DNA of 24,937 bases from positions 1 through 24,937 of IMG/VR virus record IMGVR_UViG_3300010151_000150; one strand, given 5' to 3'. Positions 1 through 22,282 of the stretch are shown here, piece after piece. A program made the position numbers and the translations under genes. Origin of the DNA: a virus. A model generated the notes under the pieces. The model worked only from the letters and a program-made list of their open reading frames with translations, was not told the origin of the DNA and searched no databases. Numbering within the stretch: the stretch's first letter is position 1; each line of letters begins with the position of its first letter.

Positions 1-108
1 ATTAGATACATTACTTACATTAGATACATTACTTACATTAGATACATTACTTACATTAGATACATTACTTACATTAGATACATTACTTACATTAGATACA
101 TTACTTAC
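1..108. repeat. Perfect 18-bp tandem repeat, six copies, coding for (VSN)n
   Basis: Six identical tandem copies of attagatacattacttac fill positions 1-108. On the minus strand each copy reads GTA AGT AAT GTA TCT AAT, which is Val-Ser-Asn twice with two different serine codons. A degenerate copy follows at 109-126, giving Asn-Ser-Ile-Asn-Thr-Thr in reverse order. The repeat lies inside the truncated structural gene and starts exactly at the window edge, so the true copy number is unknown. Confidence 0.97.
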
Positions 109-1059
109 ATTAGATATATTAGTAGTATTATATACATCACCTGTTGCATCAATATTAGCATTATTAGCAGCAGTTGTTGTAGTAGGAACATTAGCGGGAT
201 TTACTACAGGACTTGGTGCAGGTGAAGGTTGACCACCAGCATCATCAGTATAATCGCCTAAACGTTTTTTAAACAATCCTGCTGTAATTTTTAATCTATC
301 TGCACCAGGTGCTGCATAATTATTAAATCCTTGAGAATTGTCATTTAAAGTAGGATCTACATCTGCATTAATTATTTCTTCTGTTACAAATAAACCAACT
401 CTATAATTAGATCTATTAGTATATTGATCTAAAAGAATTGTTTCTTTATTTACGTTTACAAATTGACCGTGGAAAAAATATACACCTTCATCAATGTTGA
501 AGGATGCTCCTGTTATTGATGCTCTACTAGGAAAAGTTGAGGCAAATGGTGTACCTGGTTCAATTGTAGAGTTTCCCAATAACCCAGAAAGAATAGTAAC
601 ATTAGAAGTTAATTCTTCTCCATCATCAAACTCTTTATTAGTATTATTTTTAGTATTTGAACCCAAATAATTTACATAGAGAGTAAGAGTTCCCCTTTCA
701 GATTCTTCTGGTCTCAAAACTCTATCAACAATTGCCGTTACACCTGAATTTGATCCTCTAATTCTTGCACCAACCAATTGATCAACATATGCAGATACAG
801 GAACCCCTTGATAATTATTATTAAGCTGGACACCATAATATAATTGGTTATAACCAATATTTCCTGGAATTACTTTAGCACCTTCTTTAAAGAAATGCTT
901 ACCAAATTTTTCAATTTGATTCTGAAGTATAGATTGAAGAGATGTTAATTCTCTAGCTTGTACCGGATATCCTGGTTTAAAAAGGACTTTTGCAAAATCA
1001 TTGTCTGCCTGGAAGTCATCAAAATATGGTGATACGTTAAGATTCGTTTGTAGTGGCAT
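1..1059 (-). CDS. DUF4815-type virion structural protein, C-terminus cut by window edge
   Basis: The reading frame is open from an ATG at 1059 to the first base of the window, so 353 N-terminal residues are visible and the stop lies outside. The start MPLQTNLNVSPYFDDF followed by a KVLFKPGYPVQARELTSLQ segment and QNQIEKFGKHFF matches, from memory, the DUF4815 structural proteins that T4-like cyanophages carry after gene 8. A later NAAPGADRLKITA-like stretch (seen here as NNYAAPGADRLKIT) fits the same family. After about residue 270 the protein becomes a Pro/Thr/Asn/Ala-rich linker and then a (Val-Ser-Asn)n repeat that runs off the window. The start is 6 nt below the gp8 stop, so it is last in the visible late operon. 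It is probably a baseplate or short-fibre component, since it occupies the place of T4 genes 9-10. The exact role is inference. Confidence 0.8.
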   Translation of the reverse strand, partial: MPLQTNLNVSPYFDDFQADNDFAKVLFKPGYPVQARELTSLQSILQNQIEKFGKHFFKEGAKVIPGNIGYNQLYYGVQLNNNYQGVPVSAYVDQLVGARIRGSNSGVTAIVDRVLRPEESERGTLTLYVNYLGSNTKNNTNKEFDDGEELTSNVTILSGLLGNSTIEPGTPFASTFPSRASITGASFNIDEGVYFFHGQFVNVNKETILLDQYTNRSNYRVGLFVTEEIINADVDPTLNDNSQGFNNYAAPGADRLKITAGLFKKRLGDYTDDAGGQPSPAPSPVVNPANVPTTTTAANNANIDATGDVYNTTNISNVSNVSNVSNVSNVSNVSNVSNVSNVSNVSNVSNVSN

Positions 1060-5600: not shown

Positions 5601-8600
5601 TGCATTAGCATCCTTCGCAGTAAATCTATGAGATGATCCAATACCAACACTAGTAAAGTTTAAAGATTCTGGTATAACTTTAAGAGCATTTTCAGCACTA
5701 GATGCCAATCTTATAGTATCATCATCAACTTTAATAACATATACACTGGAAGGTGTTTTATCGGTTGTACCAATACCAACACCACCAGATTCTCCAAAAG
5801 AAGTAGAACCAATTCCAATTGCTTGTGTAGCACCAATTCCAGAATGTGTATAATTAACATTCTGCCCAGTAACAAAGAAGTGATTAGGAAGGGTTATTGT
5901 ACTTGACCCTACACTTACAACCGTAGAAGCATTACCAACAAAATCCCTATTGAAAATTTCTTCCTTATTATGAGTTAACGGGAAGTCTCTCTTAATGTCA
6001 TTTAAAGTTCCTCTATACGTCGCATAATCTGTTTCAATAGTACCATTATTAAAATCAATAGTATCTTTATCATCGTCTTGAATCTTCAATGCATTCATAT
6101 AAGTATTAACTTGACAATCAATATTTGCATTCGGTGTAAATGTTGCCTCACAATAAGAAACACCACCTTGATTCATCTGCAATCTACTTCCAATAGTACC
6201 TAATCCTGCAAGAGTTTCTATATTAGCCCATTCAGTATCATAAGCAGTTCCAATTCCACTTTCTTCACTATAATCTTCTAAAACAAAGAACTCAGATAAT
6301 TGATGTTCAGTATTTGTGGTATCAGTTACTTGAACTATAAAATAAGCACCATCATAACCATCAACCTCAGGGTTAAATTGAGTTGGGAAACTTCCAATAC
6401 CAACAGGAATAGGAGAACCAGCAGCAGCAATAGTAGTAGTCCTTGATTCAAGAAGAGCATGTTTCATACTAATGGTTCCAATACCAGTAGTAGTATTTCC
6501 AATTGCTACTTGCATAGTATTAACTATACAAGTGGTTCCAATTCCAGCATTTGGATGGAAATCAATTTTGACAGTTCCACTCTCAATGTAAGCAGAGTAA
6601 GTTCCAAATCCTTGAGCAAGATTTGCTGAACTAGTAACCATCTCACCATATTCTAATAAATCTACATTAGTTCCATCATGAAGAATATTAAGTTCCTCAA
6701 ATTCCCAATCCTCACTATTAATTGTTGATCCATCTCCACCAGCATCTGGTGTTATACTAACCAAAACTTTAGCAGAACGATATGTTGTAGCAATACCTAC
6801 AACTGTAGTAGTAGTTGCAGCGGCAACTTTTGTACTTGTTGAATCAATATAAACACATCCCAAACTTGTAGTACCTATACCCAGATAATTGTCATCTAAA
6901 TTATAAGCTAAAGTAGTAACATAGTAATCATTCTTCTTATATCTGGTAGGATAGAAAAGAACTTGACCTTCTGTACCAGAAACTTGGAAATCAAATGAAC
7001 CAAGATCATAAACATTATCAATTTTGGCATATTGGTTAATATATCCAAAAGTACCATCATGAATAAGATCAACTATCATTAATTGTCTTTGACCCGTATA
7101 TCTTTGGTCTTTAATTAATGTGAAATATTTCTTTGCTCTATGCTCAGTTAAAGTAAATGTATCAATTATACCGTAAATAGTTGGTCGTGGATTACTATTA
7201 AATGTTCCACTGAAATCATCTATAGTAAGAACTCTATTGGTTTGAGAGTCTTCATAATCACTAAGAACTCTATTTGCAAATATAACTTCATCCGATAAAA
7301 TAGAACCACCTTCACCTTGTGCTCCACCACCAACTTTTCTATAATTTTCTCTGACCAGATCAAAATCAGATACCGCATTCATATTTCCAATACCAATTAT
7401 ATCATTAACTGCATCAACTGATGTTGTTTCAGTAGATAATCCAACACTCATCATACTCTCACCAGTAGTAGATTCTAACTGATAGTCAGAAAACTTTTTA
7501 AATCCTGAAGTATGATTTAATGTACCTACAGGATCCTTCCAAGTATCATAATCAACCTTGGATTTAAGTGAATATGAGAAGTTCTGATAGTAAAAACTAT
7601 CTTCTATTTTTTGTAGAGGGTAATTTAATACTCCAGAATCAGTTTCCCATCCATGAAATACCTTAGCCCAAGCACCGAAATTAAGATCTGCAGCGTAAGT
7701 TTCTACTCTATCGGCACGTCCATGAACATGCGATGCTTGTCCAATAAGAACATCTCCTTTCTTTAATTCGTCAATAGTAGATACTTTTAATAAACCAACC
7801 TTTTTATCCCATCTATCGACAATACCACTTTTCCCATTTAGAGTCCCATCATCTACTTTTACTATTTCTCCTTCTAAATAATCAGTTTGCTCAACCGCAA
7901 TATTAAATACTGGCCAATTCTTCTCTGCTATAACTCTTCCGGCAGAACTAGGGGCATGGAAAACACCAGGAGTCTCTCCATCACTTAAATGATCTTTAAG
8001 ACTATAAGCAACCGTTCCAATTCCTCCAATGTTTTCATCAACTGCGATTAAAGGGAAAGTGTTATAATTATAACTTGCAGAATTATATCCAGTTCCCGTA
8101 GATCCAACACCAACACTAACATTCTCAACTAAAACTCTATCACCCAATTGGAATGGGAAAGATCCTGCAGTGGTAAATCCTACTGCTAAGGTGAGAGTTA
8201 CATCTTTAGTGACAGTATTAAATCCAACAGTAGCAATTCCTACACCATTAGTATTTTCTGTGGGGATAATATACGGAGTAACATTATGAATTCCAAAAGT
8301 ATTTCTAAGAACTTCTACTTTTTGCGTTTTAAGATCATATTTAGCAGCAAATTCATCCTTCAATTGATCAGTTTTACCATCAAAAAGACGTAAATTTGGT
8401 GGCGATGAATATCCCCTTCCAACAGAGGTTATTCCAATAGATTGAACACGAGCAAATTCTTTTATCGATACAATTTGCGGTAATGCAACACTTGGTTCTA
8501 AAGTTGGGTCTGATGGGAAATTATATCCAATATTCTCAACTTCTGTTTTAGTAATTTTACCAATATTATTACTCGTTGCTTCTGCTATAGCAAACTGACC

Positions 8601-11600
8601 CAATTCCGAAGTAATAGACTTAACTCCAGGGATTGAATAATAATTATTACCACCATCAGTTACATTAAATTCTGCTATAGGTCCGAAAGCTGTTTCTGAA
8701 TCAGTTTTATATGTTAAATCAGAAGTAGTACCTGCATAGGATACTTTCTCTGGAGTCGATGCTAAAGTATAAGTGTAAGTATTAGTTGCCCCAACACCAA
8801 TAATATGTTTTCCATTATAAACACTAAGATATGAATTAATTTCATGTCCATTAAGAACATCTCCATCAATATCAATTTCTGATTTTACTTCTGGTAGATC
8901 ACTCTCATATACAGGAAGAAGTCTATAATATAAAGTATCTGGTACATACTTATCAATAGTTAATTCAAGTTTAGCATCAGTATCTATTCCAATTCTCCCT
9001 GATTTTTTAACTTGGAATTCTTTAGTACTTGGATTTTTATTCCATTCCTTTACACAATTATTATCTGCATATAACTGGAAATCAAATGCTGGATACGATA
9101 TTGACCCTACAGTATATGCCAATGAAGAATCTGAAAGATCAAAAGTAATAACAGAATCCTTATATACTGTTATTGGTGGATTTATTGGATTTAAAGTTCC
9201 ACTAGAAGCACTATTTCCAATACTAACAACAATAGGCTTATGTCTCGTAGCATTGTAATAACTGCTTGATAATTTAAACTGATTATCATCAATTGGAACT
9301 ACGTAATAAATTCCCTGATCTTCCAATCCATATGTAGAATGATCAGATCTATCTGCGATATGGACAACTTTTTCAGCTTTAGTAAACCCGTTATCATTTA
9401 TTGTAAAAGTATTTGTTGATGTAGTTACGCCAGCAGTAGTAAATCCAACTGCATCAAGAGTAAGTTTCCTATTATAATCATTATATTTTACTGTAACAAT
9501 ACCAGCATTAGATGGATTAACCCGAACAATAACAGTATCTTTTGGTTGTAATCCATGAGTACCTGCAGTACCTACTGTTACAAGATTTCTACTTAACTTC
9601 CCAGTAATAGGAGTAAAATTGTTATTAAAACTATGATATGTTCCAGTTCCTATTCCGGTAAAGAAAAGTATAGAAGAACTATTACGATGTGTTGATGCTA
9701 TACCACACCAACTTCCAGCTTCATTTATAAAGACCTTACATGTTGCAATTCCCAACTCATCTTTCGATATTCTAGCAGCATAAAGAGTTTCGCCATTAGT
9801 TAATGTTGTACCAGTACCTGCCCAATTTTGGAACGCAGGACTTCCTCCATTTGATCTAGTATCACCAAAGACACTAAGTGCAGCACCCACAACTCCCGTT
9901 GCTGCAGCAGACACCTGAGACTTGCAACATAAAAGTTTTACATTAGATCCTGCAGCTGCTTGACTGGTCTTGGTTGTTGGTAATACTGGTGGTGTAAATG
10001 CTGCAGTATAAATTGCTTCTCCAACAGCATATCTCAGGTTAGAAATTTTTCCTCTAAAATACCTATCTTGAGAAGCAGAAGTTTTATGAGCACCAATATG
10101 AACTACAGTACCAGTACCTGTTCTTGTGCCACTTAAAGTACCAGTTGCTTCGACTACACCATTAATAAAGATCTTTCCAGCAGTATTGTATAAAGATGCA
10201 GCCACATGAGTCCACTGCCCTACAGGACACATCCCAGCTGCAGTTGTTATGTCAAGTAAATCGGTACCAGCATCGTTTTCTACTAGAAGTCTTATATCTC
10301 CATGATTAGTGGAATTAAGGGTCAATCCTATATTAGAAGCACTACCTACAGAGCTATTAAAGATTTGTCCTATTATAGCATTTTGAGGATATATCCAGGC
10401 TTCTACAGTGAAATTATTACTATTACCAAGTTCATAAGCACTATCAGTACTGGTCATATAATCACCAGTACCATCAAACAATACAGATCCCTGTACATCA
10501 ACAGTAGTACCAGCAGCAACAATACCACTTCCATTACCTGGAGAGTATGTAAGCACATCATTATTTTGATACATGTGGTTTTCAATCCACATGGTTCTAG
10601 TGGGAATAAAGACTCCTGTTCTTCCTACCCCAGCAATACCCAATGAACTAAGACCCACATTCTCAAAATAAACTGTAGATCCAATACCAGTAGCAACACT
10701 AGTTCCTACTCCAACATGATGAACTGGGTTGAAATAACGCTGTTCATTTAATTTATTTTCAGTAGTTGTTCTAAATCCAGCATTTATAATAATTTTTCTA
10801 GGATCATCATATAAAGTAGTTCCTATACTATGAGAAACACCCACAGTATTATCCCATGCCCTTATTACTCTAATTCTTGACAATTGTTTGTCTACATTTA
10901 AAACTTTAACCCTCTCAGTACCAATCCCTAGAATATCATTCTCCCTAATATTAGGATATTCAAGAACTCCTCCAACATTAAGAAAAGTAACTATCCCAGT
11001 AACAGAAGTAGACCCTAATCCTGTAGGATTACTTGTACCAACTCCAACCAATTTTAATAAATTAGTCGTAATTCCTACTTTATAAGATCCTTCAATATCA
11101 GAAGAAGTAGTAGATAATCCAGAAACTGAAATTATATCATTAGCTAAGAAATTATGTGGATTTTCACACCACCCAATCCAATCACCATTTACTTTTTCAG
11201 TAGGATAGAATTCAACCCCACTAATAGTACTAGTCGCCACACTTACATTAGTAACAACATCACCCTCAAGTAATGAAATGCTAGCTTTTGCCCCAGAATT
11301 GGGATCATGCTCCATTTGCAATATTCCATTAGTATTAGTAAGACGCGAACCTCTTCTAACTGCTGCAGTGTCACTATTATCAAATATTACCTCATCACCC
11401 ATCTTATACATTTTTCCAGCACTACTAATCCCAACATCCTGAACTGTTCCACGAGTAGTAGAAAGAATATCTACTTTTTGTTTCAACTTATTGGGTATAT
11501 AAGCATATTTGTAAGTGATATCGTCTTCTATTAAATTATAGGGTTCAGTATTCCTAAACCAATTCTCTGCAGAAAGATTAAAATCATCCTGATTTGAATG

Positions 11601-14600
11601 AAGATCGAAATTAAATTTATTAGGAACTGAATGATACGCATCACCAACCAAATATGGGAACTTTGGTTCTCGATATTCTAAGAAAGGTCCAGCAGACGCC
11701 GTTACTGCATCAACAGTAGCAAAATATGCATAAGTTCCATTTGGAAATTCTGGAGTAATGCAGAATCTTCCATTATTTTTATCTAGAACTGTCTCATCAT
11801 TTACTTCAGTATAAGTATAATCTTCAATGAAAAATCCTTCAGGGAAAAATACTTCAGATGGTCTATTGGATTTCAAATCAAGTTTGTACCCAGATTTCAT
11901 CTGTTTAATCACACCACCTCTTCTAGTAGCATATCCATATGGACCATAAATCGGATTTCCATCATATGCCCACCCAATTATTGGAGAATGTCCTGTAGCA
12001 GAAATTTCTGATCCATTTTGTTTGCTTAAATCATTCTGCCCATATAAAGTGTTGCCATCCTGATCAGTTGAATAAACCGACTCTCTAAGTATTCTGGGAG
12101 CATATAAATGGGTATATTGAAGTCCAATTCGACCATCTACTATAAATCCATCATCTAACGTGAATTTTTCCCAATGTTTCCCTACTAAATTTACACGCCA
12201 TTTCTGAAGCTGTGCTTTAAATTCTGCTCCTCCTCCAGGAAAATCAAGAAAAGATATTACATTTTGTTGCGTATATCCTTCACCACCTTGAAGTACTTTA
12301 ATAGATTCTATTCTACCATCTTCTGCTAATATTGGAGTAGCAACACAACCGAAACCATACCCTGCTCGTTCTTCTACTATTACATCAGGTGGGGAATTAT
12401 ATCCATGACCAGGATTTTCAACTATAATCTCAGAAACTCTTCCATCAATAACAACTGGTTTTAATTGAGCTTCTTCTCCAAATGATAAATTAATAGATGG
12501 TTGTCTCACATAATCCATCACTGTAGAATTACCATATCCTACACCATTATCAGAAAGATGTACGCCTGTTACTCTTCCTCTAAATATTGGTTGAATTTCA
12601 CATGCAAAATTTACTCCATCAGCAGGTTGATCTCCAGTTGCTGTAGTACCATAACCAACTATAGATGATATACCAATTTCACCTAATACATTAACTTCAA
12701 TGGGTGGATAATTAAAGAATTGAGTTCCTATACCAGTTGATTCTATATTAATAAATTGACTACTCTGATAATAAATGTCATAATCAATCGTCGCTATACC
12801 TACATTAGATAATTTAAAATTATCATCATCAATCTTTGTTAAAATGTAATCGGTAGCACTAGAAATTCCCGACATTTCTGTCGCACCATCACCAAGACTA
12901 TACCTAACGGTTTCTCCAGAATTATATCCATGATCTTCAATAGTAATTACATTATTAGATGTATTAACTCCAACTGGATATAAAGATCTTTGTCTATAAG
13001 TATATCCACTTCCTTCATCAATTACATTAACAGAACTCAATACCATTCTTTCATGAACAGGTTTAAGAATTTGATTACCAACACCATAATCAGTTATTAC
13101 GACAGTATTAATTCCTAAAATAGAATCTCCTTGTGTGGGATATAACTGAACTGTAAAATTATCTACAACACCGATAAAATATTTGTTATACGTATTTAAT
13201 CCAACAATACCATCTTGACCTTCACTATAATAGATTACTGGTTCTTCAGGTCTAAGTTTATGATAGGTTGAAAATCCAATTGTCGAAACTGTAGCACCAA
13301 TTCCTATTAAATTTACATTCTGGGCACTGAAAGATGCTTCATATTGAATATACCCCATATTTGGCTGAGCAACTGCTCCTGTACCATTACCACCTGTAAT
13401 TGTAACCGATGGCATTCTTGTATAATCAGATCCAGGACTTTTAACTCTAATTTCCTGTAAACTACCCTGTACATCTACAAATCCAGTAGCTCCAATTCCA
13501 GTAACATCATCAATATACAAAAGAGGTGGATCAATAATATCATAATCATTACCTTCTGCTAATATTTCAATATTTTCAATTTTTCCAGAATTAACTAACT
13601 GTTTTGATTTATAATTTTGAACTTCAACACCATTTATTAATATTCCAGTAGGACCTGGTACAGTTTCAAATATCTCAGAATCCTGTATTGGTGTTTGAAG
13701 AGATCTTACTATTTTTTGCGATTCTAAAGTTTTAAGTTTGAATGTATAAGGCTCTATTTTATTATTTTCGACTGTTATCTCATTATCAGTTACAACAAAA
13801 ACTCCATTAGCAATATCCGCTATACTTTTTGCTAATCTTATTGTATATGCGTCTAATCTTTTTATAAAATATAAACCTTCTTCAAATAAGAAAGAATAAG
13901 TGACAATCCTAGTTTGAATTTTGCCAAAAGAATCATAATAAGTTTCAGCTTCTTTTTGTGGGGTATACCAAACAGCATCTCCTGTATAAAATCCGTGATC
14001 TAGAGTTGAAGTTATTGTAAATGCACTTGTTGCAGGGAATGTTCCATTAAGAGCAACAGATCTACTCGAAACGTTAAGTGGTTGAGCATTATATGAAGGA
14101 ATAGATGGAGATGCAATTAGATAATCACTACCTTGTTTATATAAATTCTGTACATTAGTTAAAAATCGTGATGAATCTGGGAAAGTGTTGGATATAGACC
14201 TTAAAAGAACTCTTTTAACAGTATACGTATCAATAATCGCAAGATTTCCTTGACCTTTTATAATAAAGGATGTTGCAGATTTAATCTCACTAATTGTAGA
14301 CATTGGCCTTTCAAGGGTGTCTCTACCTATTAAAATTACATTATCACCCACTCTAAAAGAATGTTCTGTTTTTAAATAAACTAGGTAAGTTTGATCTGAA
14401 ATATCAATTAATTCAACACTCTTAACATTATACTGCGTTGCAATATTATAAAACCAATTTCTTCCTTTAAAACTCTTTTCTTTAATACCTAAAGTTTTAA
14501 TTTTAGCAACATCACTATGTGAATAATAGCGATTAGTATTTGCATAATTAAGACTCTCTAATACCGAACCTACCCGTACTCTGATAATACTACCATCACC

Positions 14601-15800
14601 GGTATTTGATTGAGCATAACAATACGTATTAATCCCAACATCTTCAGCATCTTCAATTATTCCAATTACATTAGAACATCCAAAGAACTGATTTAAATTC
14701 TTAGAAGTATAAGAAACAATACCAAGTTTAGTATCGTTATACCTTACAGACAATTCACCAGTATTTGGAAACCCTACAGTTGAATCAACATCAAATATAG
14801 TAGTTCCTGCAGATACTTGTCCAATCATCCGCGTTTTAGGATGAGTAATAAATGTACCGTAAGTAGCACCTTCTACTCTAGAATCTCTATTATATCCAGC
14901 ATCTAAACTAAGTTTATAAAAAGTTTTTGCCAGTCCAACATTTATTTGCTCTACATTTGTAATTGGAGCATATGCCTTTTCAATAAATGAAGGATCGCCA
15001 TATGGATCTTGAAATAGAGTCGAATTCTCCAACTCCATTGGATCACCTTCTACACCTTCTACAACAAAATCATTAGTAATAATATAATGGGCATTGGATG
15101 GTGTAAAAAGAAAATCTCTTGGCTTTATAACACTTACTTCTTCATTATATAATGCTTTAAATAAGATTTGAAAAGAAAGATCAGTTCCTTTACTTCTATA
15201 AAAATCTTTTGATTGTTTAATAAAAACATTCTTATTCAAATCTTTATGTAATTTTCTATTCTCAAAACCAGGTAAAAGTTGATGCTTTGTTTTTAATAAG
15301 AAATCTTTAAGGAAAATACAACTTAAATTGGTTATTGTAGCCCCTTTTTCATGATCAGCAGATATAGTAGAATCAAAAACTAACTGATCTGGACTATCTG
15401 CAGACTTATATGTTGTAATACCACTAAATCCTCTTACGCAACCAGTAAAACCTGAAGTAGTTAATCCAGTATATGTAACTATCTCATCATCAATTTTTAA
15501 TAATCCATAAGTTTCAGGAAATCCTGATGTGCCAGATGGATAATTGGATAAATCAACAGGAATAGTTGTATCAGAAAAAATAATATCTGACCCTAATCCA
15601 ACATGATCAGTTAAATTGGTTAAATTATCAACTTTTACGTATTTGTCAATATTTTGTATTAAATCAGCAGGAGCACCTTGAAATTCTTGAGAGATGTAAT
15701 AACTCTTAAGAAATTCAGAAACTAATGGAAATTCTGTTTGAACATATGTTGGAAGTTGATTCTCAACAACGTTTTGAAATTGGACCCTTTTTTCTGCCAT
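2652..15800 (-). CDS. 7: Giant baseplate wedge protein, gp7 homologue with YHYH and LamG domains
   Basis: The 4382-aa product lies between genes 6 and 8, exactly where T4 places gene 7, whose product starts wedge assembly by binding gp10 and gp8. Residues about 190-225 (KDFYRSKG then LFKALYNEEV) match a T4 gp7 segment I remember as YDFYSTKG then LFKVLYNEEV. In T4 this is in the C-terminal third; here it is near the N-terminus. The rest is beta-rich. At least 12 copies of a GxGY motif occur (for example VLQGGEGYTQQNVISF and VTDGGVGYTTATVSIG), and [IV]G[IV]G[ST] words recur throughout. Residues about 1205-1395 carry a YHYH-type domain (GWAYDGNPIYGPYGY). Residues about 1765-1945 carry a LamG/ConA-like fold (FTVEAWIYP, GQWTHVAAS, RYFRGKISNLRY). 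No frameshift is seen. The start is 1 nt after the gene 6 stop, with an AAGAG Shine-Dalgarno. Some later domains may serve host adhesion. Confidence 0.9.
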   Translation of the reverse strand: MAEKRVQFQNVVENQLPTYVQTEFPLVSEFLKSYYISQEFQGAPADLIQNIDKYVKVDNLTNLTDHVGLGSDIIFSDTTIPVDLSNYPSGTSGFPETYGLLKIDDEIVTYTGLTTSGFTGCVRGFSGITTYKSADSPDQLVFDSTISADHEKGATITNLSCIFLKDFLLKTKHQLLPGFENRKLHKDLNKNVFIKQSKDFYRSKGTDLSFQILFKALYNEEVSVIKPRDFLFTPSNAHYIITNDFVVEGVEGDPMELENSTLFQDPYGDPSFIEKAYAPITNVEQINVGLAKTFYKLSLDAGYNRDSRVEGATYGTFITHPKTRMIGQVSAGTTIFDVDSTVGFPNTGELSVRYNDTKLGIVSYTSKNLNQFFGCSNVIGIIEDAEDVGINTYCYAQSNTGDGSIIRVRVGSVLESLNYANTNRYYSHSDVAKIKTLGIKEKSFKGRNWFYNIATQYNVKSVELIDISDQTYLVYLKTEHSFRVGDNVILIGRDTLERPMSTISEIKSATSFIIKGQGNLAIIDTYTVKRVLLRSISNTFPDSSRFLTNVQNLYKQGSDYLIASPSIPSYNAQPLNVSSRSVALNGTFPATSAFTITSTLDHGFYTGDAVWYTPQKEAETYYDSFGKIQTRIVTYSFLFEEGLYFIKRLDAYTIRLAKSIADIANGVFVVTDNEITVENNKIEPYTFKLKTLESQKIVRSLQTPIQDSEIFETVPGPTGILINGVEVQNYKSKQLVNSGKIENIEILAEGNDYDIIDPPLLYIDDVTGIGATGFVDVQGSLQEIRVKSPGSDYTRMPSVTITGGNGTGAVAQPNMGYIQYEASFSAQNVNLIGIGATVSTIGFSTYHKLRPEEPVIYYSEGQDGIVGLNTYNKYFIGVVDNFTVQLYPTQGDSILGINTVVITDYGVGNQILKPVHERMVLSSVNVIDEGSGYTYRQRSLYPVGVNTSNNVITIEDHGYNSGETVRYSLGDGATEMSGISSATDYILTKIDDDNFKLSNVGIATIDYDIYYQSSQFINIESTGIGTQFFNYPPIEVNVLGEIGISSIVGYGTTATGDQPADGVNFACEIQPIFRGRVTGVHLSDNGVGYGNSTVMDYVRQPSINLSFGEEAQLKPVVIDGRVSEIIVENPGHGYNSPPDVIVEERAGYGFGCVATPILAEDGRIESIKVLQGGEGYTQQNVISFLDFPGGGAEFKAQLQKWRVNLVGKHWEKFTLDDGFIVDGRIGLQYTHLYAPRILRESVYSTDQDGNTLYGQNDLSKQNGSEISATGHSPIIGWAYDGNPIYGPYGYATRRGGVIKQMKSGYKLDLKSNRPSEVFFPEGFFIEDYTYTEVNDETVLDKNNGRFCITPEFPNGTYAYFATVDAVTASAGPFLEYREPKFPYLVGDAYHSVPNKFNFDLHSNQDDFNLSAENWFRNTEPYNLIEDDITYKYAYIPNKLKQKVDILSTTRGTVQDVGISSAGKMYKMGDEVIFDNSDTAAVRRGSRLTNTNGILQMEHDPNSGAKASISLLEGDVVTNVSVATSTISGVEFYPTEKVNGDWIGWCENPHNFLANDIISVSGLSTTSSDIEGSYKVGITTNLLKLVGVGTSNPTGLGSTSVTGIVTFLNVGGVLEYPNIRENDILGIGTERVKVLNVDKQLSRIRVIRAWDNTVGVSHSIGTTLYDDPRKIIINAGFRTTTENKLNEQRYFNPVHHVGVGTSVATGIGSTVYFENVGLSSLGIAGVGRTGVFIPTRTMWIENHMYQNNDVLTYSPGNGSGIVAAGTTVDVQGSVLFDGTGDYMTSTDSAYELGNSNNFTVEAWIYPQNAIIGQIFNSSVGSASNIGLTLNSTNHGDIRLLVENDAGTDLLDITTAAGMCPVGQWTHVAASLYNTAGKIFINGVVEATGTLSGTRTGTGTVVHIGAHKTSASQDRYFRGKISNLRYAVGEAIYTAAFTPPVLPTTKTSQAAAGSNVKLLCCKSQVSAAATGVVGAALSVFGDTRSNGGSPAFQNWAGTGTTLTNGETLYAARISKDELGIATCKVFINEAGSWCGIASTHRNSSSILFFTGIGTGTYHSFNNNFTPITGKLSRNLVTVGTAGTHGLQPKDTVIVRVNPSNAGIVTVKYNDYNRKLTLDAVGFTTAGVTTSTNTFTINDNGFTKAEKVVHIADRSDHSTYGLEDQGIYYVVPIDDNQFKLSSSYYNATRHKPIVVSIGNSASSGTLNPINPPITVYKDSVITFDLSDSSLAYTVGSISYPAFDFQLYADNNCVKEWNKNPSTKEFQVKKSGRIGIDTDAKLELTIDKYVPDTLYYRLLPVYESDLPEVKSEIDIDGDVLNGHEINSYLSVYNGKHIIGVGATNTYTYTLASTPEKVSYAGTTSDLTYKTDSETAFGPIAEFNVTDGGNNYYSIPGVKSITSELGQFAIAEATSNNIGKITKTEVENIGYNFPSDPTLEPSVALPQIVSIKEFARVQSIGITSVGRGYSSPPNLRLFDGKTDQLKDEFAAKYDLKTQKVEVLRNTFGIHNVTPYIIPTENTNGVGIATVGFNTVTKDVTLTLAVGFTTAGSFPFQLGDRVLVENVSVGVGSTGTGYNSASYNYNTFPLIAVDENIGGIGTVAYSLKDHLSDGETPGVFHAPSSAGRVIAEKNWPVFNIAVEQTDYLEGEIVKVDDGTLNGKSGIVDRWDKKVGLLKVSTIDELKKGDVLIGQASHVHGRADRVETYAADLNFGAWAKVFHGWETDSGVLNYPLQKIEDSFYYQNFSYSLKSKVDYDTWKDPVGTLNHTSGFKKFSDYQLESTTGESMMSVGLSTETTSVDAVNDIIGIGNMNAVSDFDLVRENYRKVGGGAQGEGGSILSDEVIFANRVLSDYEDSQTNRVLTIDDFSGTFNSNPRPTIYGIIDTFTLTEHRAKKYFTLIKDQRYTGQRQLMIVDLIHDGTFGYINQYAKIDNVYDLGSFDFQVSGTEGQVLFYPTRYKKNDYYVTTLAYNLDDNYLGIGTTSLGCVYIDSTSTKVAAATTTTVVGIATTYRSAKVLVSITPDAGGDGSTINSEDWEFEELNILHDGTNVDLLEYGEMVTSSANLAQGFGTYSAYIESGTVKIDFHPNAGIGTTCIVNTMQVAIGNTTTGIGTISMKHALLESRTTTIAAAGSPIPVGIGSFPTQFNPEVDGYDGAYFIVQVTDTTNTEHQLSEFFVLEDYSEESGIGTAYDTEWANIETLAGLGTIGSRLQMNQGGVSYCEATFTPNANIDCQVNTYMNALKIQDDDKDTIDFNNGTIETDYATYRGTLNDIKRDFPLTHNKEEIFNRDFVGNASTVVSVGSSTITLPNHFFVTGQNVNYTHSGIGATQAIGIGSTSFGESGGVGIGTTDKTPSSVYVIKVDDDTIRLASSAENALKVIPESLNFTSVGIGSSHRFTAKDANAKVVIGLDNVIQSPVVATATTTHLSNITFTTDDLLYFSGITSFFADDLVRVGAADTGEIMQITAIGVGATNAIRVDRGWMGSKIAGFATDTKVVKVIGAYNIVENTLNFVDAPVGNTPLSTDTNKPDDRDWVGISTGYSFQGRMFMRSGITDGTLEPYTSNYIIDSISNEFNGLNKNFDLKVDGANFVGISTGAFILINSVVQGRGETYNYTFDDTAGITTLSFVGNAKILKDDVGISSFPVGGIIISVGSTEGFGYQPLVSAGGTAIVSGLGTISSISIGNSGSGYRAGIQTVNVGISSQGKDATYFTGIATAIINNGYITGISSVSGIGTLGIHTSSNPPLITIDAPLSYSGMPLIYSSDSVTGVGTTATIDVVVGQGSSVVDFALTNLGFGYGNSEILTVPVGGLTGIPTTADFGSKEFQLTVDEIFSDEFTGWSFGELDMIDKIEDLFDGETLTFQIKKNGAVLSILSAKGSKINVQDCLLIFVNDILQIPGKAYKFEGGSLLTFTEAPKFGDSCKIMFYKGTAGVDVNSVEILETVKPGDDIMIEADSTISWKAGLNQQAWMDEDEREVARVDSTDTVTTVPYFGPGNTTDENLMRPVIWVRQTEDRIINDKEVAKDRELYEPNIYPAAYLIKTVGVGSTAIYVDNIRPFFDPNNESGISLSFQDKISFVGQESKIAAAATATVSTGGTISAITVTDGGVGYTTATVSIGATGSGQGGVGIGTTWTAYGAVTIAADGTISGIAVTSGGYGYSPEETPQVLISPPASVDEVDIVSSYVGDSGVIVGFGTTTSNQIMFDLHIPYDSYLRQPTYVGTGLSLSSLSVNDYFIIENSNVGIATTSITSLDGSSTYGIGTHFADNVYKVTTAVSISTSVLGISTYVRRVTVGVGSTPAGWYGTVGIRTSDFYGNYSWGVITLPSRAGINSFQSYTLDGVGVAASSITEVVGSSIGVTTAISATGIHTSAIVQRYKPLKYKNYTT

Positions 15801-18650: not shown

Positions 18651-18860
18651 TTAATTTTTCTCCTTTGATTCAATTGATATTGTAGAGGTAAGACCTAAAG
18701 CTTTAAGTTTTTCTATTACCGACTCCTTCGAGGCACGAACCCGATAATTTACCTTGTCTCTACGAGAAATTTCGGTAAGATTTTCTGATATTTCATACCA
18801 GAGTTGCTCATCAGTCTTCATAGAAAAATCTGGATGTTTACTATTAAAAACTCCCATCAT
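18651..18860 (-). CDS. Hypothetical small protein (69 aa)
   Basis: The product has a Lys/Glu-rich composition, a likely helix at residues about 17-32 (DEQLWYEISENLTEISRR) and another at 43-56 (KESVIEKLKALG), and no recognisable motif. Its start overlaps the glycosyltransferase stop by one base in a TAATG arrangement. A second in-frame ATG follows directly (MMGVF), so the first residue is uncertain by one. It is the middle gene of a three-gene unit with one promoter and one terminator. Function is unknown. Confidence 0.75.
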   Translation of the reverse strand: MMGVFNSKHPDFSMKTDEQLWYEISENLTEISRRDKVNYRVRASKESVIEKLKALGLTSTISIESKEKN

Positions 18861-19633
18861 TATATGATACGAGATTTTTCATGCCCTACACGTATACGAG
18901 GATCACACCAGATATCATACCCTTCCTCTATGGCATCTAAACAGAATGATACGTCCTCTCCACACATGTCTTGTACTGCACCGGATTCGAAAACTTGCAT
19001 CTTAGGAGCAAACCAAGGATATGGAAGTTTCTCAAAAACACCCTTCTTAATCATTACCCACCCGAAACCTGTGTAATCTACAGTGAATGGCTTCTTACGC
19101 TTGCTGATCGATTCCACAGTCTCATGGTTCATTACTCCACCATTCTTACGGAAATCATCTTCCTCTAACCAATGGGCGACAGATGTAGTCTTGCCATCCT
19201 CAGTAGCATACCATCCTGCTGTAATATCTCTCTCATCACCTTCTGCGGGAACTGCAAGATCACATAACTGCCAGAACTTGTTAGTATCAAAGACAATATC
19301 CGAGTCAATCCATAGTTGATAATCATATGATAATTTTCCGTCCCACGGTATCTGTTCAGGTCCTCTTAATACATTTGCTCCAAGACACTTACATCTTGCA
19401 AAATTAACCATAGATGAGTAATCTTGACTGATCTGTATACTCATCTGATTCTGTACCATATCAAAGCATAGTTGAACAAAATTCTTTAAGTATGTGTAAG
19501 ATACTCCACGTCCAGGAAGACAAAATACAATTGCCTTTCCTTTCATTCTTGCTTTAATAGCATCGATATCCCAATCTTCCTTCTTGGATTTTGCCTTGGG
19601 AGCATTTGCTTTAACAGTAAATCCTTTTGCCAT
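18860..19633 (-). CDS. Glycosyltransferase-like protein, GT-A fold (GT2-like)
   Basis: The 257-aa product looks like a GT-A glycosyltransferase. After a basic N-terminal tail (residues 1-30) comes a KGKAIVFCLPGRGVSYTYLKN strand-loop seen in part as IVFCLPGRGVSY. A DSD metal-binding motif follows at residues 110-112 (LWIDSDIVF), then a GFGWVMIKKGVFEKL acceptor-side segment at 189-203, a GEDVSFC motif at 225-231 where an acidic catalytic residue is usual, and a late His at 251 (RVGHEK). Such genes are frequent in cyanomyoviruses. The target, whether phage DNA, virion protein or host surface glycan, cannot be told from sequence. It has its own near-consensus sigma-70 promoter and leads a three-gene unit. 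An AAGG is 12 nt before the ATG, rather far. Confidence 0.8.
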   Translation of the reverse strand: MAKGFTVKANAPKAKSKKEDWDIDAIKARMKGKAIVFCLPGRGVSYTYLKNFVQLCFDMVQNQMSIQISQDYSSMVNFARCKCLGANVLRGPEQIPWDGKLSYDYQLWIDSDIVFDTNKFWQLCDLAVPAEGDERDITAGWYATEDGKTTSVAHWLEEDDFRKNGGVMNHETVESISKRKKPFTVDYTGFGWVMIKKGVFEKLPYPWFAPKMQVFESGAVQDMCGEDVSFCLDAIEEGYDIWCDPRIRVGHEKSRII

Positions 19634-19656
19634 AATTTTTTAATACCTTCAATTCA

Positions 19657-19685
19657 ATTATACACTGATATATGTATAAAGTCAA
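19657..19685 (-). promoter_or_regulatory. Sigma-70 promoter for the glycosyltransferase unit
   Basis: On the minus strand TTGACT (19685-19680) is followed after exactly 17 nt by a perfect TATAAT (19662-19657). The -35 box overlaps the stop codon of the 76-aa gene upstream. Transcription should start near 19650, leaving a leader of about 17 nt before the ATG at 19633. This host-type promoter suggests early or middle expression. Confidence 0.85.
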
Positions 19686-19912
19686 TACGAATCTTCTTCC
19701 CATTCATGTTTGTAGATAACCTTACCTGGTCCCCCTACGCCACACTTTGCTCCTAGTTTAATATACGACAAATCTTTGGTAGAATACTCTGTTTTCAGAA
19801 TACCTACCATTACTTGTAGTAATTCCCATTTTTCCTCAAAATCTTCCTCGTTTAAATTGCAATATAATACTCTGTCCTTTGCGTAGATATGATATGTTGT
19901 ATCCTCTACCAT
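19682..19912 (-). CDS. Conserved hypothetical protein of cyanophage type (76 aa)
   Basis: The product starts MVEDTTYHIYAKDRVLYCNL and has a predicted helix at about 22-40 (EEDFEEKWELLQVMVGIL), then a Gly-rich GAKCGVGGPG segment at 53-62. I recognise the TTYHIYAKDR-type start from hypothetical proteins of T4-like cyanophages, but no function is known to me. No Shine-Dalgarno is visible. The ATG overlaps the TAG of an upstream frame without ATG (19906-20037), which could supply coupled translation. The promoter of the next gene is built into its 3' end. Confidence 0.78.
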   Translation of the reverse strand: MVEDTTYHIYAKDRVLYCNLNEEDFEEKWELLQVMVGILKTEYSTKDLSYIKLGAKCGVGGPGKVIYKHEWEEDSY

Positions 19913-20037
19913 TTATTTTTTACTGGGGGAAATTTTTCTATATAGGGCGTTTTTTCTATTCCAATATTTTCTGAGGGATCTAAAAATAAACACCCAAAAA
20001 CTCCAAGAATCAAAAGGGTAATCAGTCCATTTCTTAT
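19906..20037 (-). pseudogene. Lipoprotein-like ORF lacking an ATG start
   Basis: The frame, read from ATA at 20037, gives IRNGLITLLILGVFGCLFLD, then a Pro/Lys/Glu tail ending KNKW and a TAG that overlaps the start of the next gene. It has a hydrophobic stretch with a lipobox-like VFGC, mostly A/T at third positions, and a stop (TGA) not far upstream. No ATG is in frame; possible starts are ATA, CTG or TTG. An out-of-frame ATG gives only two codons. It may be a decayed gene, a gene with a non-standard start, or one damaged by a base change. Another frame of the same DNA is also open for about 46 codons, so confidence is low. Confidence 0.35.
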
Positions 20038-20124
20038 CTGGGGGATTTTTTTTCAACTGTATATATCTCTCTCGAATTCGGTCCGTTGTAGGTTAGGGTC
20101 TCTATCGTTTTTAATAAGGGGCAT

Positions 20125-20137
20125 CGCGCCGGGCGCG
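20125..20137. repeat. GC-only perfect palindrome (operator-like or cruciform)
   Basis: The sequence cgcgccgggcgcg has 6-base arms (CGCGCC and GGCGCG) around one base, followed by three more G, so 16 bases in a row are G or C in otherwise AT-rich DNA. It lies just downstream of a minus-strand TTGACA (20167-20162), near the expected transcription start, a usual place for an operator. Confidence 0.6.
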
Positions 20138-20218
20138 GGGATAACATAAGGGCATAATAACTGTCAATACGCATTAATCAGGCATCGCTAATCCTTAAAA
20201 TCAAACTGTTACATATAC

Positions 20219-20247
20219 ATCATAACATAAAAAAGGCAGAGTGTCAA
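20219..20247 (-). promoter_or_regulatory. Sigma-70 promoter overlapping a terminator
   Basis: TTGACA (20247-20242) is followed after exactly 17 nt by TATGAT (20224-20219) on the minus strand. The -35 hexamer is formed by the loop and the second arm of the terminator hairpin at 20229-20257. Transcription would start near 20212 and run toward the mini-ORF region and the 76-aa gene. Confidence 0.65.
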
Positions 20248-20257
20248 CCACCCTGCC
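20229..20257 (-). terminator. Intrinsic terminator after the 37-aa gene
   Basis: On the minus strand GGCAGGGTG pairs with CACTCTGCC (nine pairs, one G-U) around loop GTTGA and is followed by six T residues. It lies 26 nt past the stop of the 37-aa gene. Confidence 0.9.
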
Positions 20258-20283
20258 CTAATCTGTCCTTTAGTTTGTGTTAC

Positions 20284-20397
20284 TTATGCGTCCTCACTTT
20301 CAGAAACGAAACTGTCAATTACTTCCAGAAGTTCGTTGCCCGATTGTGACTCTTCAAGAGCGAAGATTAGAGCATCAAGATTAACAGAAACTCCCAT
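20284..20397 (-). CDS. Small acidic protein (37 aa)
   Basis: The product starts MGVSVNLDALIFALEESQSG and ends SFVSESEDA. It has a net negative charge and is probably one amphipathic helix (residues 7-32). AAGG lies 9 nt before the ATG, and a strong terminator follows the stop, so the tiny frame has proper signals at both ends. I recognise no family. One copy of the C-tract element (20430-20456) lies 33 nt upstream of the start. Its stop codon overlaps a copy of the TAAGTAACACA repeat. Confidence 0.6.
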   Translation of the reverse strand: MGVSVNLDALIFALEESQSGNELLEVIDSFVSESEDA

Positions 20398-20429
20398 GTG
20401 TTTTACCTTAAGTTAGTTGGTACAATACA

Positions 20430-20456
20430 GGGACAATTTAGACGACCCCCCCTTAT
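20430..20456 (-). promoter_or_regulatory. C/G-tract leader element, copy A
   Basis: First of three related elements. On the minus strand it reads AAGGGGGGG-TCGTC-TAAATTGTCCC, ending 32 nt before the ATG of the 37-aa gene. It differs from the other two copies at a few central bases but keeps the G tract, the TCG, the TAAA core and the TGTCC end. Confidence 0.6.
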
Positions 20457-20475
20457 AGTTACTGAAGATACGCTA

Positions 20476-20503
20476 AGTAACACATAAGACCCTTACGGTT
20501 ACT
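20476..20503 (-). promoter_or_regulatory. Long hairpin directly after the 57-aa gene
   Basis: Arms AGTAAC-CGTAAG and CTTATG-t-GTTACT pair over 12 positions (one G-U, one bulged T) around a 3-nt loop. It begins 2 nt after the stop of the 57-aa gene. There is no T run on either side, so it is not a standard terminator. A role in mRNA stability or processing is possible. Confidence 0.6.
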
Positions 20504-20505
20504 AA

Positions 20506-20679
20506 CTACCAACTGACAGGATTACTCATGTCTTCGATAACACTCTCTACTGACTCATTGTCCTGCAAGTCTAACACTTTTCTCCAATCAATCTGCTGTG
20601 GATTAAAGTCATCGAGTGTCGTAATATCCAACGTTATTCTATACCTTTGCTGCGTACTGTTGTAGTAAGAAACTGTCAT
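20506..20679 (-). CDS. Hypothetical small protein (57 aa)
   Basis: The product starts MTVSYYNSTQQRYRITLDIT, continues TLDDFNPQQIDWRKVLDL and ends MSNPVSW. It has a beta-rich start and an acidic helix at about 40-51. Such DFNP-x-x-IDW small proteins seem familiar from T4-like cyanophages, but I know no function. TAGGCAC gives a weak ribosome site 9-12 nt before the ATG. Its own promoter (TTGACA, 17 nt, TAGACT) lies just upstream, and a long hairpin follows the stop. It is the gene closest to the putative origin, pointing away from it. Confidence 0.65.
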   Translation of the reverse strand: MTVSYYNSTQQRYRITLDITTLDDFNPQQIDWRKVLDLQDNESVESVIEDMSNPVSW

Positions 20680-20710
20680 TGGATTGTGCCTACTAGAGTG
20701 TTACTAAGTT

Positions 20711-20739
20711 AGTCTAACATTACTGAGAGTTGTTGTCAA
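20711..20739 (-). promoter_or_regulatory. Sigma-70 promoter for the 57-aa gene
   Basis: TTGACA (20739-20734) and TAGACT (20716-20711) are separated by 17 nt on the minus strand. The -35 box is perfect, the -10 is 4 of 6. The expected start near 20704 leaves a 25-nt leader. A canonical late-type TATAAATA lies just upstream at 20753-20760 on the same strand, so early and late control may be stacked. Confidence 0.6.
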
Positions 20740-20752
20740 GCATTATGGTGTA

Positions 20753-20760
20753 TATTTATA
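20753..20760 (-). promoter_or_regulatory. TATAAATA late-promoter match
   Basis: This is an exact match to the T4 late consensus on the minus strand, 73 nt before the ATG of the 57-aa gene and inside a gene-free stretch. Such an 8-mer is expected several times by chance in a 25-kb AT-rich sequence, so support is limited. Confidence 0.35.
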
Positions 20761-20818
20761 AGAGTTTGTGACAGAAATATAAGCGCACATTGGGGGGTTG
20801 TAAATGTTAACGGGGGTA

Positions 20819-20848
20819 TTGACATTATACGGGCGTTCGTGATAGAAT
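20819..20848 (+). promoter_or_regulatory. Plus-strand sigma-70 promoter
   Basis: TTGACA (20819-20824) is followed after 18 nt by TAGAAT (20843-20848). The -35 is perfect and the -10 is 5 of 6. It is the clearest plus-strand promoter in a window whose genes read the other way. Its transcript would start near 20855 and run through the DnaA-box cluster, so it could be a replication primer, a small RNA or the message for a 20-aa peptide. Confidence 0.7.
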
Positions 20849-20869
20849 GCTCGCTAAGATAACAACACT

Positions 20870-20932
20870 ATGAGACATTTAAGAGCACACACTATAAGAC
20901 AATTAAAACACAGATTACAGAGAGGTTTCTAA
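20870..20932 (+). CDS. Possible 20-aa basic peptide
   Basis: The only frame near the plus-strand promoter reads MRHLRAHTIRQLKHRLQRGF and stops at TAA 20930-20932. It is rich in Arg, His and Leu and would form a basic amphipathic helix. No Shine-Dalgarno sequence precedes it. It may be chance; it is listed because a strong promoter stands about 15 nt before its ATG. Confidence 0.25.
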   Translation: MRHLRAHTIRQLKHRLQRGF

Positions 20933-21066
20933 CAGTTATTCCACAAGGATTTCCACAGTTTAATGATACTTTTCAACATACTTGTGGAAAACGTATAAAC
21001 AACTAACCCCTATTTATTAGACCATTTTTAATCCTTTTTATTATATGTTTGGTATAAATTGATACT

Positions 21067-21092
21067 AAAAAGAGGGTTATTACACCCCCTTA
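21067..21092 (-). terminator. Probable terminator of the 22541-21129 operon
   Basis: On the minus strand AGGGGG and CCCTCT pair (six pairs, one G-U) around an 8-nt loop and run into TTTT. It lies about 38 nt after the stop of the 77-aa gene, the last gene of the cluster. The stem is short, so strength is uncertain. Confidence 0.55.
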
Positions 21093-21128
21093 AGTAACAC
21101 AAACGGTCAATAGTTTTCCACAGCCCCA

Positions 21129-21362
21129 TTAATAATCTGTCCCTATAATCCTCTCTCCATAGTTGTTATATAACGGATACTGATTACGCCAGGGGTCTAT
21201 TAGTTTAGAGGGAGGATGTAAGAGTCTTTGAGTAACACTTTTGTTATTAAAGTCTGTATCTTGATTGTATCTCTTAGTGGTTGTATCTTCATCACCAAAT
21301 ACAATAACTGCTACCCATATTATAAAGACTAAACTAACACCTTTTTGAATTGAATTGATCAT
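21129..21362 (-). CDS. Small membrane-anchored or secreted protein (77 aa)
   Basis: Residues 7-22 (KGVSLVFIIWVAVIVF) form one hydrophobic segment after a short N-terminus with one Lys, typical of a signal anchor. The rest (residues 24-77) is polar and should face the periplasm; it contains PPSKLIDPWRNQYPLYNNYG and ends RIIGTDY. I recognise no family with certainty. The start overlaps the upstream gene's stop (ATGA, 4 nt), so translation is probably coupled. It is the last gene of the cluster and is followed by a probable terminator. An envelope role, for example in lysis or superinfection control, is only a guess from the anchor. Confidence 0.72.
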   Translation of the reverse strand: MINSIQKGVSLVFIIWVAVIVFGDEDTTTKRYNQDTDFNNKSVTQRLLHPPSKLIDPWRNQYPLYNNYGERIIGTDY

Positions 21363-21613
21363 TTTAAGTTACCAAATAGTGAAGAATAATCATGTGTGTT
21401 TGTATCATCTATTAATTCGAAATCAGGGGGATCTAAGTTGTTAATCCAATCGGGTGTATCTTGTTTGTTAAGTGATACAATTTCCTCTTCTATATCTTCA
21501 CTTACTCCAGACGGTTTATAGTTTAAAATTGAATCTAATTGAATGATGATTGTATCTAACTTAGTAACAACTTGTGAAAGTAATTCTGTTTGTGTTGGTT
21601 GTTTACTTGTCAT
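21359..21613 (-). CDS. Hypothetical protein with coiled-coil N-terminus (84 aa)
   Basis: Residues about 8-32 (TELLSQVVTKLDTIIIQL, then DSIL) show Leu/Ile/Val spacing suggestive of a short coiled coil. The second half is strongly acidic with DDTNTHDYSSLFGNLK at the end. AGGAGA lies 8 nt before the ATG, which is good support for this start. It overlaps the 51-aa gene upstream by 11 nt and the 77-aa gene downstream by 4 nt. I recognise no family or motif; a role in oligomerising with a partner is inference from the coiled coil only. Confidence 0.75.
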   Translation of the reverse strand: MTSKQPTQTELLSQVVTKLDTIIIQLDSILNYKPSGVSEDIEEEIVSLNKQDTPDWINNLDPPDFELIDDTNTHDYSSLFGNLK

Positions 21614-21758
21614 TCTTATTCTCTCCTATTTGTGATATATAACGGTCTAACGCTACGATGAAATTAGCACCTGCAATCTTAAAGTTTTCTAGTTGCTCTT
21701 CTAAGGTAAGTTGTCTTAGGTCATTGATTTCTTTTAGAACGGAATTGGTGTTACTCAT
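21603..21758 (-). CDS. Hypothetical small helical protein (51 aa)
   Basis: The frame starts MSNTNSVLKEINDLRQLTLE, continues NFKIAGANFIVALDRYISQ and ends KNDK. It looks largely alpha-helical, with balanced charge and no cysteine. Its ATG overlaps the stop of the 62-aa gene (ATGAGTAA, 8 nt), and its stop lies inside the start of the 84-aa gene. It fills what would otherwise be the only gap in this run of overlapping genes, which supports it. No Shine-Dalgarno is visible, so translation probably depends on coupling. No function is recognised. Confidence 0.7.
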   Translation of the reverse strand: MSNTNSVLKEINDLRQLTLEEQLENFKIAGANFIVALDRYISQIGENKNDK

Positions 21759-21939
21759 TGTTAGTTAGATTGTAAAGTTTTTGATGTAAGGATAATACTA
21801 TTTCATTACTTGGGTCTGCTTGTTCTCTTAATTGTTGGGCAATTTCATAAAGGAAAGTAATCTCTTCTTCTGTAAATGTATCCTTTATTTTAAACTCTTT
21901 AGTTAATGAATCGCTTGCCGATTTATTCTCTTTAGTCAT
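21751..21939 (-). CDS. Hypothetical small protein (62 aa)
   Basis: The product starts MTKENKSASDSLTKEFKIKD and carries an acidic amphipathic helix at about 22-40 (EEEITFLYEIAQQLREQ), ending LTNNE. A GAGGAGG sequence 9 nt before the ATG, inside the previous gene, gives a clear ribosome site. It overlaps its upstream neighbour by 8 nt and its downstream neighbour by 8 nt. No motif or family is recognised. Confidence 0.72.
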   Translation of the reverse strand: MTKENKSASDSLTKEFKIKDTFTEEEITFLYEIAQQLREQADPSNEIVLSLHQKLYNLTNNE

Positions 21940-22135
21940 TGTAAATGTCCTCCTCTAATTCATCTAAATCTAATGGAAATTCTCTTAGTTTGCAATCACA
22001 TAGTGCCTTCATCATAACATAAAACTCTTCACCACTGCAAGTATGTTCGTCACAAAAGTATTCAGCAGTGTCTTCAACTGTTTCCATTAATTCTATTGCA
22101 CGATGTTCCATTTGTAAGCGGTTGTTAATAGTCAT
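21932..22135 (-). CDS. Small acidic Cys-containing protein (67 aa)
   Basis: The product starts MTINNRLQMEHRAIELMETV and ends DELEEDIYND. Four cysteines at 28, 33, 46 and 48 (CDEHTC and CDC) with His-31 could bind a metal ion, but the spacing is not that of a standard zinc ribbon. The C-terminus is very acidic. It starts 3 nt after the stop of the 47-aa frame and overlaps the next gene by 8 nt. No Shine-Dalgarno sequence is visible. The function is unknown. Confidence 0.72.
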   Translation of the reverse strand: MTINNRLQMEHRAIELMETVEDTAEYFCDEHTCSGEEFYVMMKALCDCKLREFPLDLDELEEDIYND

Positions 22136-22138
22136 GAT

Positions 22139-22282
22139 TTAAAGTGTGGGGAGGTAATAGTTATCATGTTTAATATATTCCAATATCTCTTTATATAATT
22201 TATGGTCATATTCAATTAGTTTTGACTTCTGCTTTGACTTCAATTTGCTTGAAGAGTTTGATACATTGGAGTGCTTTTTCAT
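22139..22282 (-). CDS. Hypothetical small protein overlapping the 45-aa gene (47 aa)
   Basis: This frame starts with an ATG at 22282 (MKKHSNVSNSSSKLKSK) and ends KHDNYYLPTL. The first half is basic and Ser/Lys-rich and overlaps the 45-aa gene in another frame by 71 nt. The second half (LIEYDHKLYKEILEYIKH) lies in DNA not covered by any other gene and looks like real protein. A shorter start at TTG (22243) is possible, which would reduce the overlap. It ends 3 nt before the next gene starts, as is usual in this cluster. No family is recognised. Confidence 0.55.
   Translation of the reverse strand: MKKHSNVSNSSSKLKSKQKSKLIEYDHKLYKEILEYIKHDNYYLPTL

Follow-up and report, generated by a model that had tools for sequence, protein, structure and literature searches.

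T4-like cyanophages are abundant in the sea, and the question raised by this locus is where such a phage starts to copy its DNA: could an intergenic cluster of DnaA boxes be the place? In T4, origins of the oriF/uvsY type are transcription-primed, with a MotA-dependent middle promoter feeding an AT-rich stretch. According to one review (PMC2984593), cyanomyoviruses are without motA, T4's MotA-dependent middle promoters being missing there; a single theta origin predicted for Syn9 is reported in the same review.

The window, i.e., the whole stretch of DNA that was analysed, is a complete virus record of 24,937 bases. It is a fragment of a T4-like cyanophage with baseplate genes (PHROG matches), and all of its genes with family matches lie on the minus strand. 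A sequence-only reading had pointed to a possible origin near 21 kb. The following features are found in and around this region.

18860..19633, minus strand: marker gene phrog_1574, glycosyltransferase-like, by which relatives were fetched; outside the element
20506..20679, minus strand: phrog_12516, small conserved gene adjoining the element, function not assigned
20753..20760, minus strand: late promoter word of the T4 type, TATAAATA, directed away from the boxes
20814..20881, plus strand: conserved promoter and leader (profile match, E 3.5e-15, iterated search seeded with the window's own sequence)
20937..20945, plus strand: box TATTCCACA, one mismatch (window match scan and relatives)
20949..20957, plus strand: box ATTTCCACA, one mismatch, 12 bp beyond the TATTCCACA box
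20970..20978, plus strand: weak and doubtful box TTTTCAACA, its one mismatch lying in the core (window match scan)
20983..20991, minus strand: exact box TTTTCCACA (window match scan and relatives)
21011..21070, no strand: AT-rich stretch (83% A+T by composition) separating the last two boxes; possible site of unwinding
21070..21091, minus strand: terminator-like hairpin, which would stop transcription of the small-gene block arriving from the right
21114..21122, plus strand: exact box TTTTCCACA (window match scan and relatives)

Both exact boxes lie at the coordinates and on the strands first reported for them, and the one-mismatch copies at 20937 and 20949 are as claimed. The fifth copy, TTTTCAACA at 20970, had been missed; in relatives, this variant shows little excess around the element (6 versus 3.0 expected). 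Two exact and three one-mismatch boxes are therefore contained in 186 bp (20937-21122). Matches to TTTTCCACA with at most one mismatch in the whole window are at chance level (11 versus 11.8 expected), five of the 11 being concentrated in these 186 bp. None of 1000 dinucleotide shuffles placed five boxes in 186 bp and one placed four, which bears out the reported tightness of the cluster; two exact copies inside 140 bp occurred in 1/1000. The mean number of exact copies per shuffled window, 0.485, agrees with the earlier expectation of well under one.

The plus-strand promoter, said to be aimed into the cluster, is indeed so placed: its -35 hexamer TTGACA begins at 20819 and is followed by an 18-nt spacer and a TG-extended -10 TAGAAT ending at 20848 (11/12 consensus positions). 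Downstream of the -10 lies a conserved initial transcribed segment, and the promoter faces against the flanking genes. Promoter-like sites are not above chance in number (12 versus 12.3 expected); on the minus strand they are found at 20739-20711 and 20804-20776. The plus promoter is convincing because it is conserved in relatives, not because of this count. An iterated profile search seeded with the window yielded a promoter family of 67 nt with 109 matches among the loci collected, the alignments giving the consensus TTGACA, about 17 nt, TG-extended TAnAnT and the conserved initial transcribed segment. By its -35 and extended -10 the promoter is of the sigma-70 type and not a MotA-dependent middle promoter.

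Other explanations of the leader were considered. A small ORF was rejected, its frame not being kept in relatives (alignment judged by eye). Tandem iterons are not general: a second copy with at most 4 mismatches is present in 13/78 loci, and in the shuffle control 2/78 loci reached this limit in any of 30 shuffles. A known RNA was ruled out, the sole Rfam match in 19600-22200 being far under its family's threshold. Terminator-like sites number 2 in 3 kb versus 1.6 expected, and the hairpin at 21070-21091 is weak taken alone.

Several observations concern the surroundings. A single 4382-residue open frame occupies 2652-15800 of the window (minus strand) downstream of gp6; the relatives' gene at this position is annotated as a baseplate wedge initiator. 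At 1-120 (minus strand) an open frame ends in a short-period repeat that encodes repeated NVS units, and the record may end there because of this repeat. Many metagenome contigs among loci L012-L091 break off in or near the element, no more than about 3 kb upstream of the marker gene, and so do the single-cell contigs MH319745 and MH319759; the cause is perhaps the variable small-gene block.

AT-rich DNA between the boxes, also part of the sequence-only reading, was found at 21011-21070, and the lowest duplex stability of the window's element falls near 20993-21072. The A+T, duplex-stability, DnaA-trio and tree analyses of relatives omit loci with short flanks or duplicate elements. In 70 loci, A+T is about 0.6 upstream and climbs to 0.75 between +150 and +200. 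Whether boxes are present or not, the peak lies 150-250 bp downstream of the start of the promoter, and it is seen both in marker-fetched loci and in 15 box-less ones. Low duplex stability (least stable 10%) characterises 45/69 loci: the element region of S-SM2 and P-TIM68 is among the ~1% least stable 220-bp bins of the genome, the window is within the least stable 10% and Syn9 within 12%. In S-PM2 boxes are present and duplex stability is ordinary (0.56).

Conservation was followed in 80 IMG/VR loci fetched via the glycosyltransferase-like marker gene, hence not chosen for boxes; these marker-fetched loci underlie the box counts, the de novo 9-mers and the promoter and box presence given here. 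Upstream of the marker gene, which means only as far as each contig extends, there are 64 exact boxes in 142,628 b, and at or beyond the marker gene start there are 0 in 387,858 b. The boxes are thus kept in place among relatives, one of the checks named at the outset. The top de novo 9-mer around the promoter is TTTTCCACA itself (54 versus 1 in about 250 kb, 39 loci). The promoter was found in 20/23 loci having at least 2 kb upstream, and in all 39 loci that have it its strand is opposite to that of the marker gene. With full flanks, 18/30 loci carry at least two boxes and 10/30 have the promoter without any box.

Among 21 isolates, 12 have a promoter match with E ~1e-6 or better (5 contributed to the model and 7 did not). 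There is one match per genome, save S-8S53, with a second, partial match at the record end, and S-SKS1, with two further weak ones. In Syn9 (boxes at 52565-52597) and S-PM2, the promoter matches that adjoin the box clusters are weak or marginal (E 0.18 in S-PM2). Exact boxes lie near the promoter in 8/21 isolates (S-SM2, S-SCSM1, P-TIM68, DSL-LC02, S-8S53, S-SKS1, Syn9, S-PM2), and 6/21 show the promoter but no exact boxes (Bellamy, SynMITS9220M01, S-B05, S-SSM7, S-SRM01, S-CAM9). A convincing element was not found in the remaining 7/21 (B23, P-SSM2, S-T4, ACG-2014f, S-CAM7, P-SSM4, S-RSM4). Many similar clusters elsewhere in a genome would have spoken against the sequence-only reading; the whole S-SM2 genome has a single such box cluster, located at the element. 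In S-PM2, deposited tRNA-Asn and tRNA-Leu annotations at 19177-19333 (L364) cover a three-box cluster at 19231-19264, and these tRNA calls may deserve re-examination.

On a tree of 65 marker proteins (midpoint-rooted drawing) box gain or loss requires 10 changes; two early-branching clades (9 and 13 rows) consist entirely of loci with boxes, but many of these rows entered the set through box-pattern searches. The boxes have disappeared several times with the promoter retained, and they are not indispensable. The stable core looks to be the promoter with the AT-rich stretch, the boxes looking like an accessory. The conserved element as a whole (antisense sigma-70 promoter, leader, AT-rich stretch and phased TTTTCCACA arrays on one or both sides) is apparently undescribed, and no report linking cyanophages with DnaA or DnaA boxes was found in the open-access papers searched.

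The identification of the motif as a cyanobacterial DnaA box can be compared with the host side. Upstream of host-family dnaN there are 22 exact copies of TTTTCCACA in 11,314 b (17/30 loci) and 0 in 85,770 b of the rest, and the word ranks in the top two of the de novo words at that site, which points to host DnaA as the likeliest binder. The published cyanobacterial DnaA box matches TTTTCCACA, and binding by cyanobacterial DnaA domain IV is published. The identity as DnaA boxes is well supported, in line with the sequence-only reading. A DnaA C-terminal domain was not found in 22 phage records, the control being positive in 10/14 genomes. The host dnaN side also carries a TAGTAGTAG repeat recalling DnaA-trios; at the phage elements DnaA-trios are not enriched (5 versus 23 expected by shuffle). 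Such repeats beside a box are not universal in DnaA-dependent origins.

The arrangement of the boxes is regular. In marker-fetched loci, boxes of the same orientation are spaced by 11, 20-22, 31-33 or 42 bp and facing boxes by 13-14, 24-25 or 34-35 bp, with one pair at 39; the spacings step by about one helical turn. A blind IMG/VR scan for outward pairs (gaps 2 to 8) returned 116 stretches, with gap 4 in 112 of 128 pairs. A cyanomyovirus protein or the promoter accompanies 96/101 of the gap-4 loci and 1/15 of those with other gaps, and shared descent accounts for part of the gap-4 uniformity. Outward pairs (gaps 0-16) occur in none of 61 host-family genomes, so this geometry belongs to the phage. 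A terminator hairpin was rejected as the cause of the inverted pair, the flanks inspected being without a T-run. A generic inverted-repeat control favours gaps 6 and 8 (gap 4 in 2/120 among the matches listed) and seems to gather hairpins of its own kind, which makes it an unclean null. Direct pairs of TTTTCCACA spaced by 21 bp also occur in unrelated viruses: of 118 loci analysed among the matches listed, 68 resemble cyanomyoviruses and the other 50 do not, with a peak at this spacing in each group. Close direct TTTTCCACA pairs are seen as well in host genomes away from dnaN; near three of them (L399, L401, L407) there is a gene for a related small protein, with a shared motif around HPxWDQYR, which may be a target of host DnaA.

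Box-less loci can carry a second repeat, ATTCTCAA(T), whose half-sites we take to resemble Fur boxes. Its copies lie 21-23 bp apart at positions where other phages have DnaA boxes, about +68 to +200 from the promoter start and mostly in loci without boxes there (L033, L042, L048, L055, L061, L068, L073, L003 and L065, L120, L133, L144, L180); the overall enrichment is 2.9-fold. This placement hints at an exchangeable initiator module.

We read the locus as a conserved intergenic initiation element of T4-like cyanophages, which would most likely serve as a host-DnaA-assisted, transcription-linked replication origin, or as the main first-round origin; this reading is given a probability of about 0.5. 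Host sigma-70 RNA polymerase would start at the lone antisense promoter and transcribe into the AT-rich stretch. Host DnaA could bind the phased TTTTCCACA array and aid opening of this stretch, and the transcript or the opened bubble would let the phage's own T4-type replisome load. Conserved promoter, orientation, single copy, box arrays, match to the host dnaN side, helical phasing and AT-rich peak are observed; DnaA binding, unwinding and priming at the element are what we infer. With its lone antisense promoter, its AT-rich stretch, its phased initiator boxes and its single copy, the element has the anatomy of an origin. A more far-reaching version is held only tentatively: the first round of replication may start at a single, dedicated origin that depends on the host's DnaA and sigma-70 RNA polymerase, with exchangeable binding sites, the DnaA array being replaced in some lineages by a phased ATTCTCAAT-type repeat while the promoter and the AT-rich stretch stay.

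Comparison with known systems gives partial likenesses. The phage element shares 9-mer boxes, clustering, an intergenic site and AT-rich surroundings with the cyanobacterial oriC beside dnaN, whereas it has no adjacent dnaN, has a dedicated antisense promoter, lacks the DnaA-trio enrichment that the host-side repeats recall and has the 4-bp-gap outward pairs not seen in the host family. As in the T4 transcription-primed origins, a promoter reads into an AT-rich stretch in a T4-type phage; in contrast to them, this promoter is of the sigma-70 type, is antisense to the flanking genes and is accompanied by host initiator boxes. The T4 genome (169 kb) contains five scattered TTWTCCACA sites only. 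Plasmid and P1 origins place host DnaA boxes beside an AT-rich opening region, as here, and in addition use their own initiator and iterons, whereas no phage initiator was identified at the element; a virulent T4-type phage would be a new user of host DnaA boxes.

Other results count against an origin. The GC skew, proposed earlier as a check, has no extreme at the element in four complete genomes: the raw skew is monotone because the genes share one strand, and detrended and fourfold-site versions show nothing there. The lack of trio enrichment, the repeated loss of boxes, the S-PM2 exceptions (among them its duplex stability, where an AT-rich region beside the boxes is otherwise found) and the 7/21 isolates without the element point the same way, as does the G-poor transcript (0.11 G), typical R-loop formers being unlike it. 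Of the sequence-only proposal of an origin in the box cluster, the host type of the boxes and their conservation in place stand; the lack of a skew extreme, the 10/30 full-flank loci with the promoter but no box and the missing trio enrichment weigh against it, and the word origin remains plausible.

If the element is not an origin, host DnaA on the arrays could regulate the antisense promoter and a divergent late promoter and so set the timing of phage expression, without contributing to the start of replication. No other part of the element is as constant as the promoter, late-promoter words are close by (TTATAAATA, which contains the T4-type word, is enriched around the element in relatives among de novo 9-mers, 21 versus 0 in the rest), and the region has the small-gene block on one side and the marker and baseplate genes on the other. 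Such a switch is nevertheless unlikely: the distance of the boxes from the promoter (about -450 to +280) and their side change between lineages, unlike usual operators, and a plain switch would not need the AT-rich peak.

Somewhat less probable is another binder, host or phage, the likeness to DnaA boxes being coincidental or borrowed. The phage motif has added context, AG before and G after the 9-mer, in a set that includes box-fetched loci, and this context is not clearly shared by the listed host boxes; the correlation between the host and phage one-mismatch spectra is weak (rho 0.35, p 0.08). In these context and spectrum sets, box frequencies and outward-pair counts are inflated by loci L092-L207, fetched by a box-pair pattern. 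The outward pair missing from host-family genomes would fit as well. The motif is, however, an exact 9-mer match to the host initiator site, scarce elsewhere in the 2.2-Mb RCC307 host genome (8 copies versus 7 of the reversed control word), and its 21-bp direct pairs recur in unrelated viruses.

The array could also titrate host DnaA as phage copies rise and so halt host replication starts, a possibility with a slimmer chance again. In datA, a DnaA-box reservoir, such a cluster likewise lies outside oriC, the boxes here match those beside host dnaN, and repeated loss fits a helpful yet dispensable function. A decoy on a multiplying phage genome would not need the fixed place beside a promoter and an AT-rich stretch, to which the phage array, unlike datA, is tied, and 2-13 boxes per locus (set including loci fetched by box pattern) are few. 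A chance cluster in AT-rich DNA, which the total of near matches would allow, has practically no probability left, the shuffles excluding it and the conservation in relatives already refuting it: the cluster is real.

A stop signal for DNA entry was considered too. T4-type genomes are circularly permuted, which makes a fixed entry stop unlikely. The T5 injection stop signal (PMC13250531), which acts in two-step DNA entry, is likewise a phage region for which repeats, palindromes and DnaA boxes are described.

With a single conserved element that carries host initiator boxes, the start of cyanophage replication can be tested directly by depth mapping. If the origin reading is true, phage replication would be tied to a protein of the host cell cycle. 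Should the origin reading prove wrong, the promoter element, conserved across much of the phage family and unannotated in the records examined, is still a useful handle on early infection.
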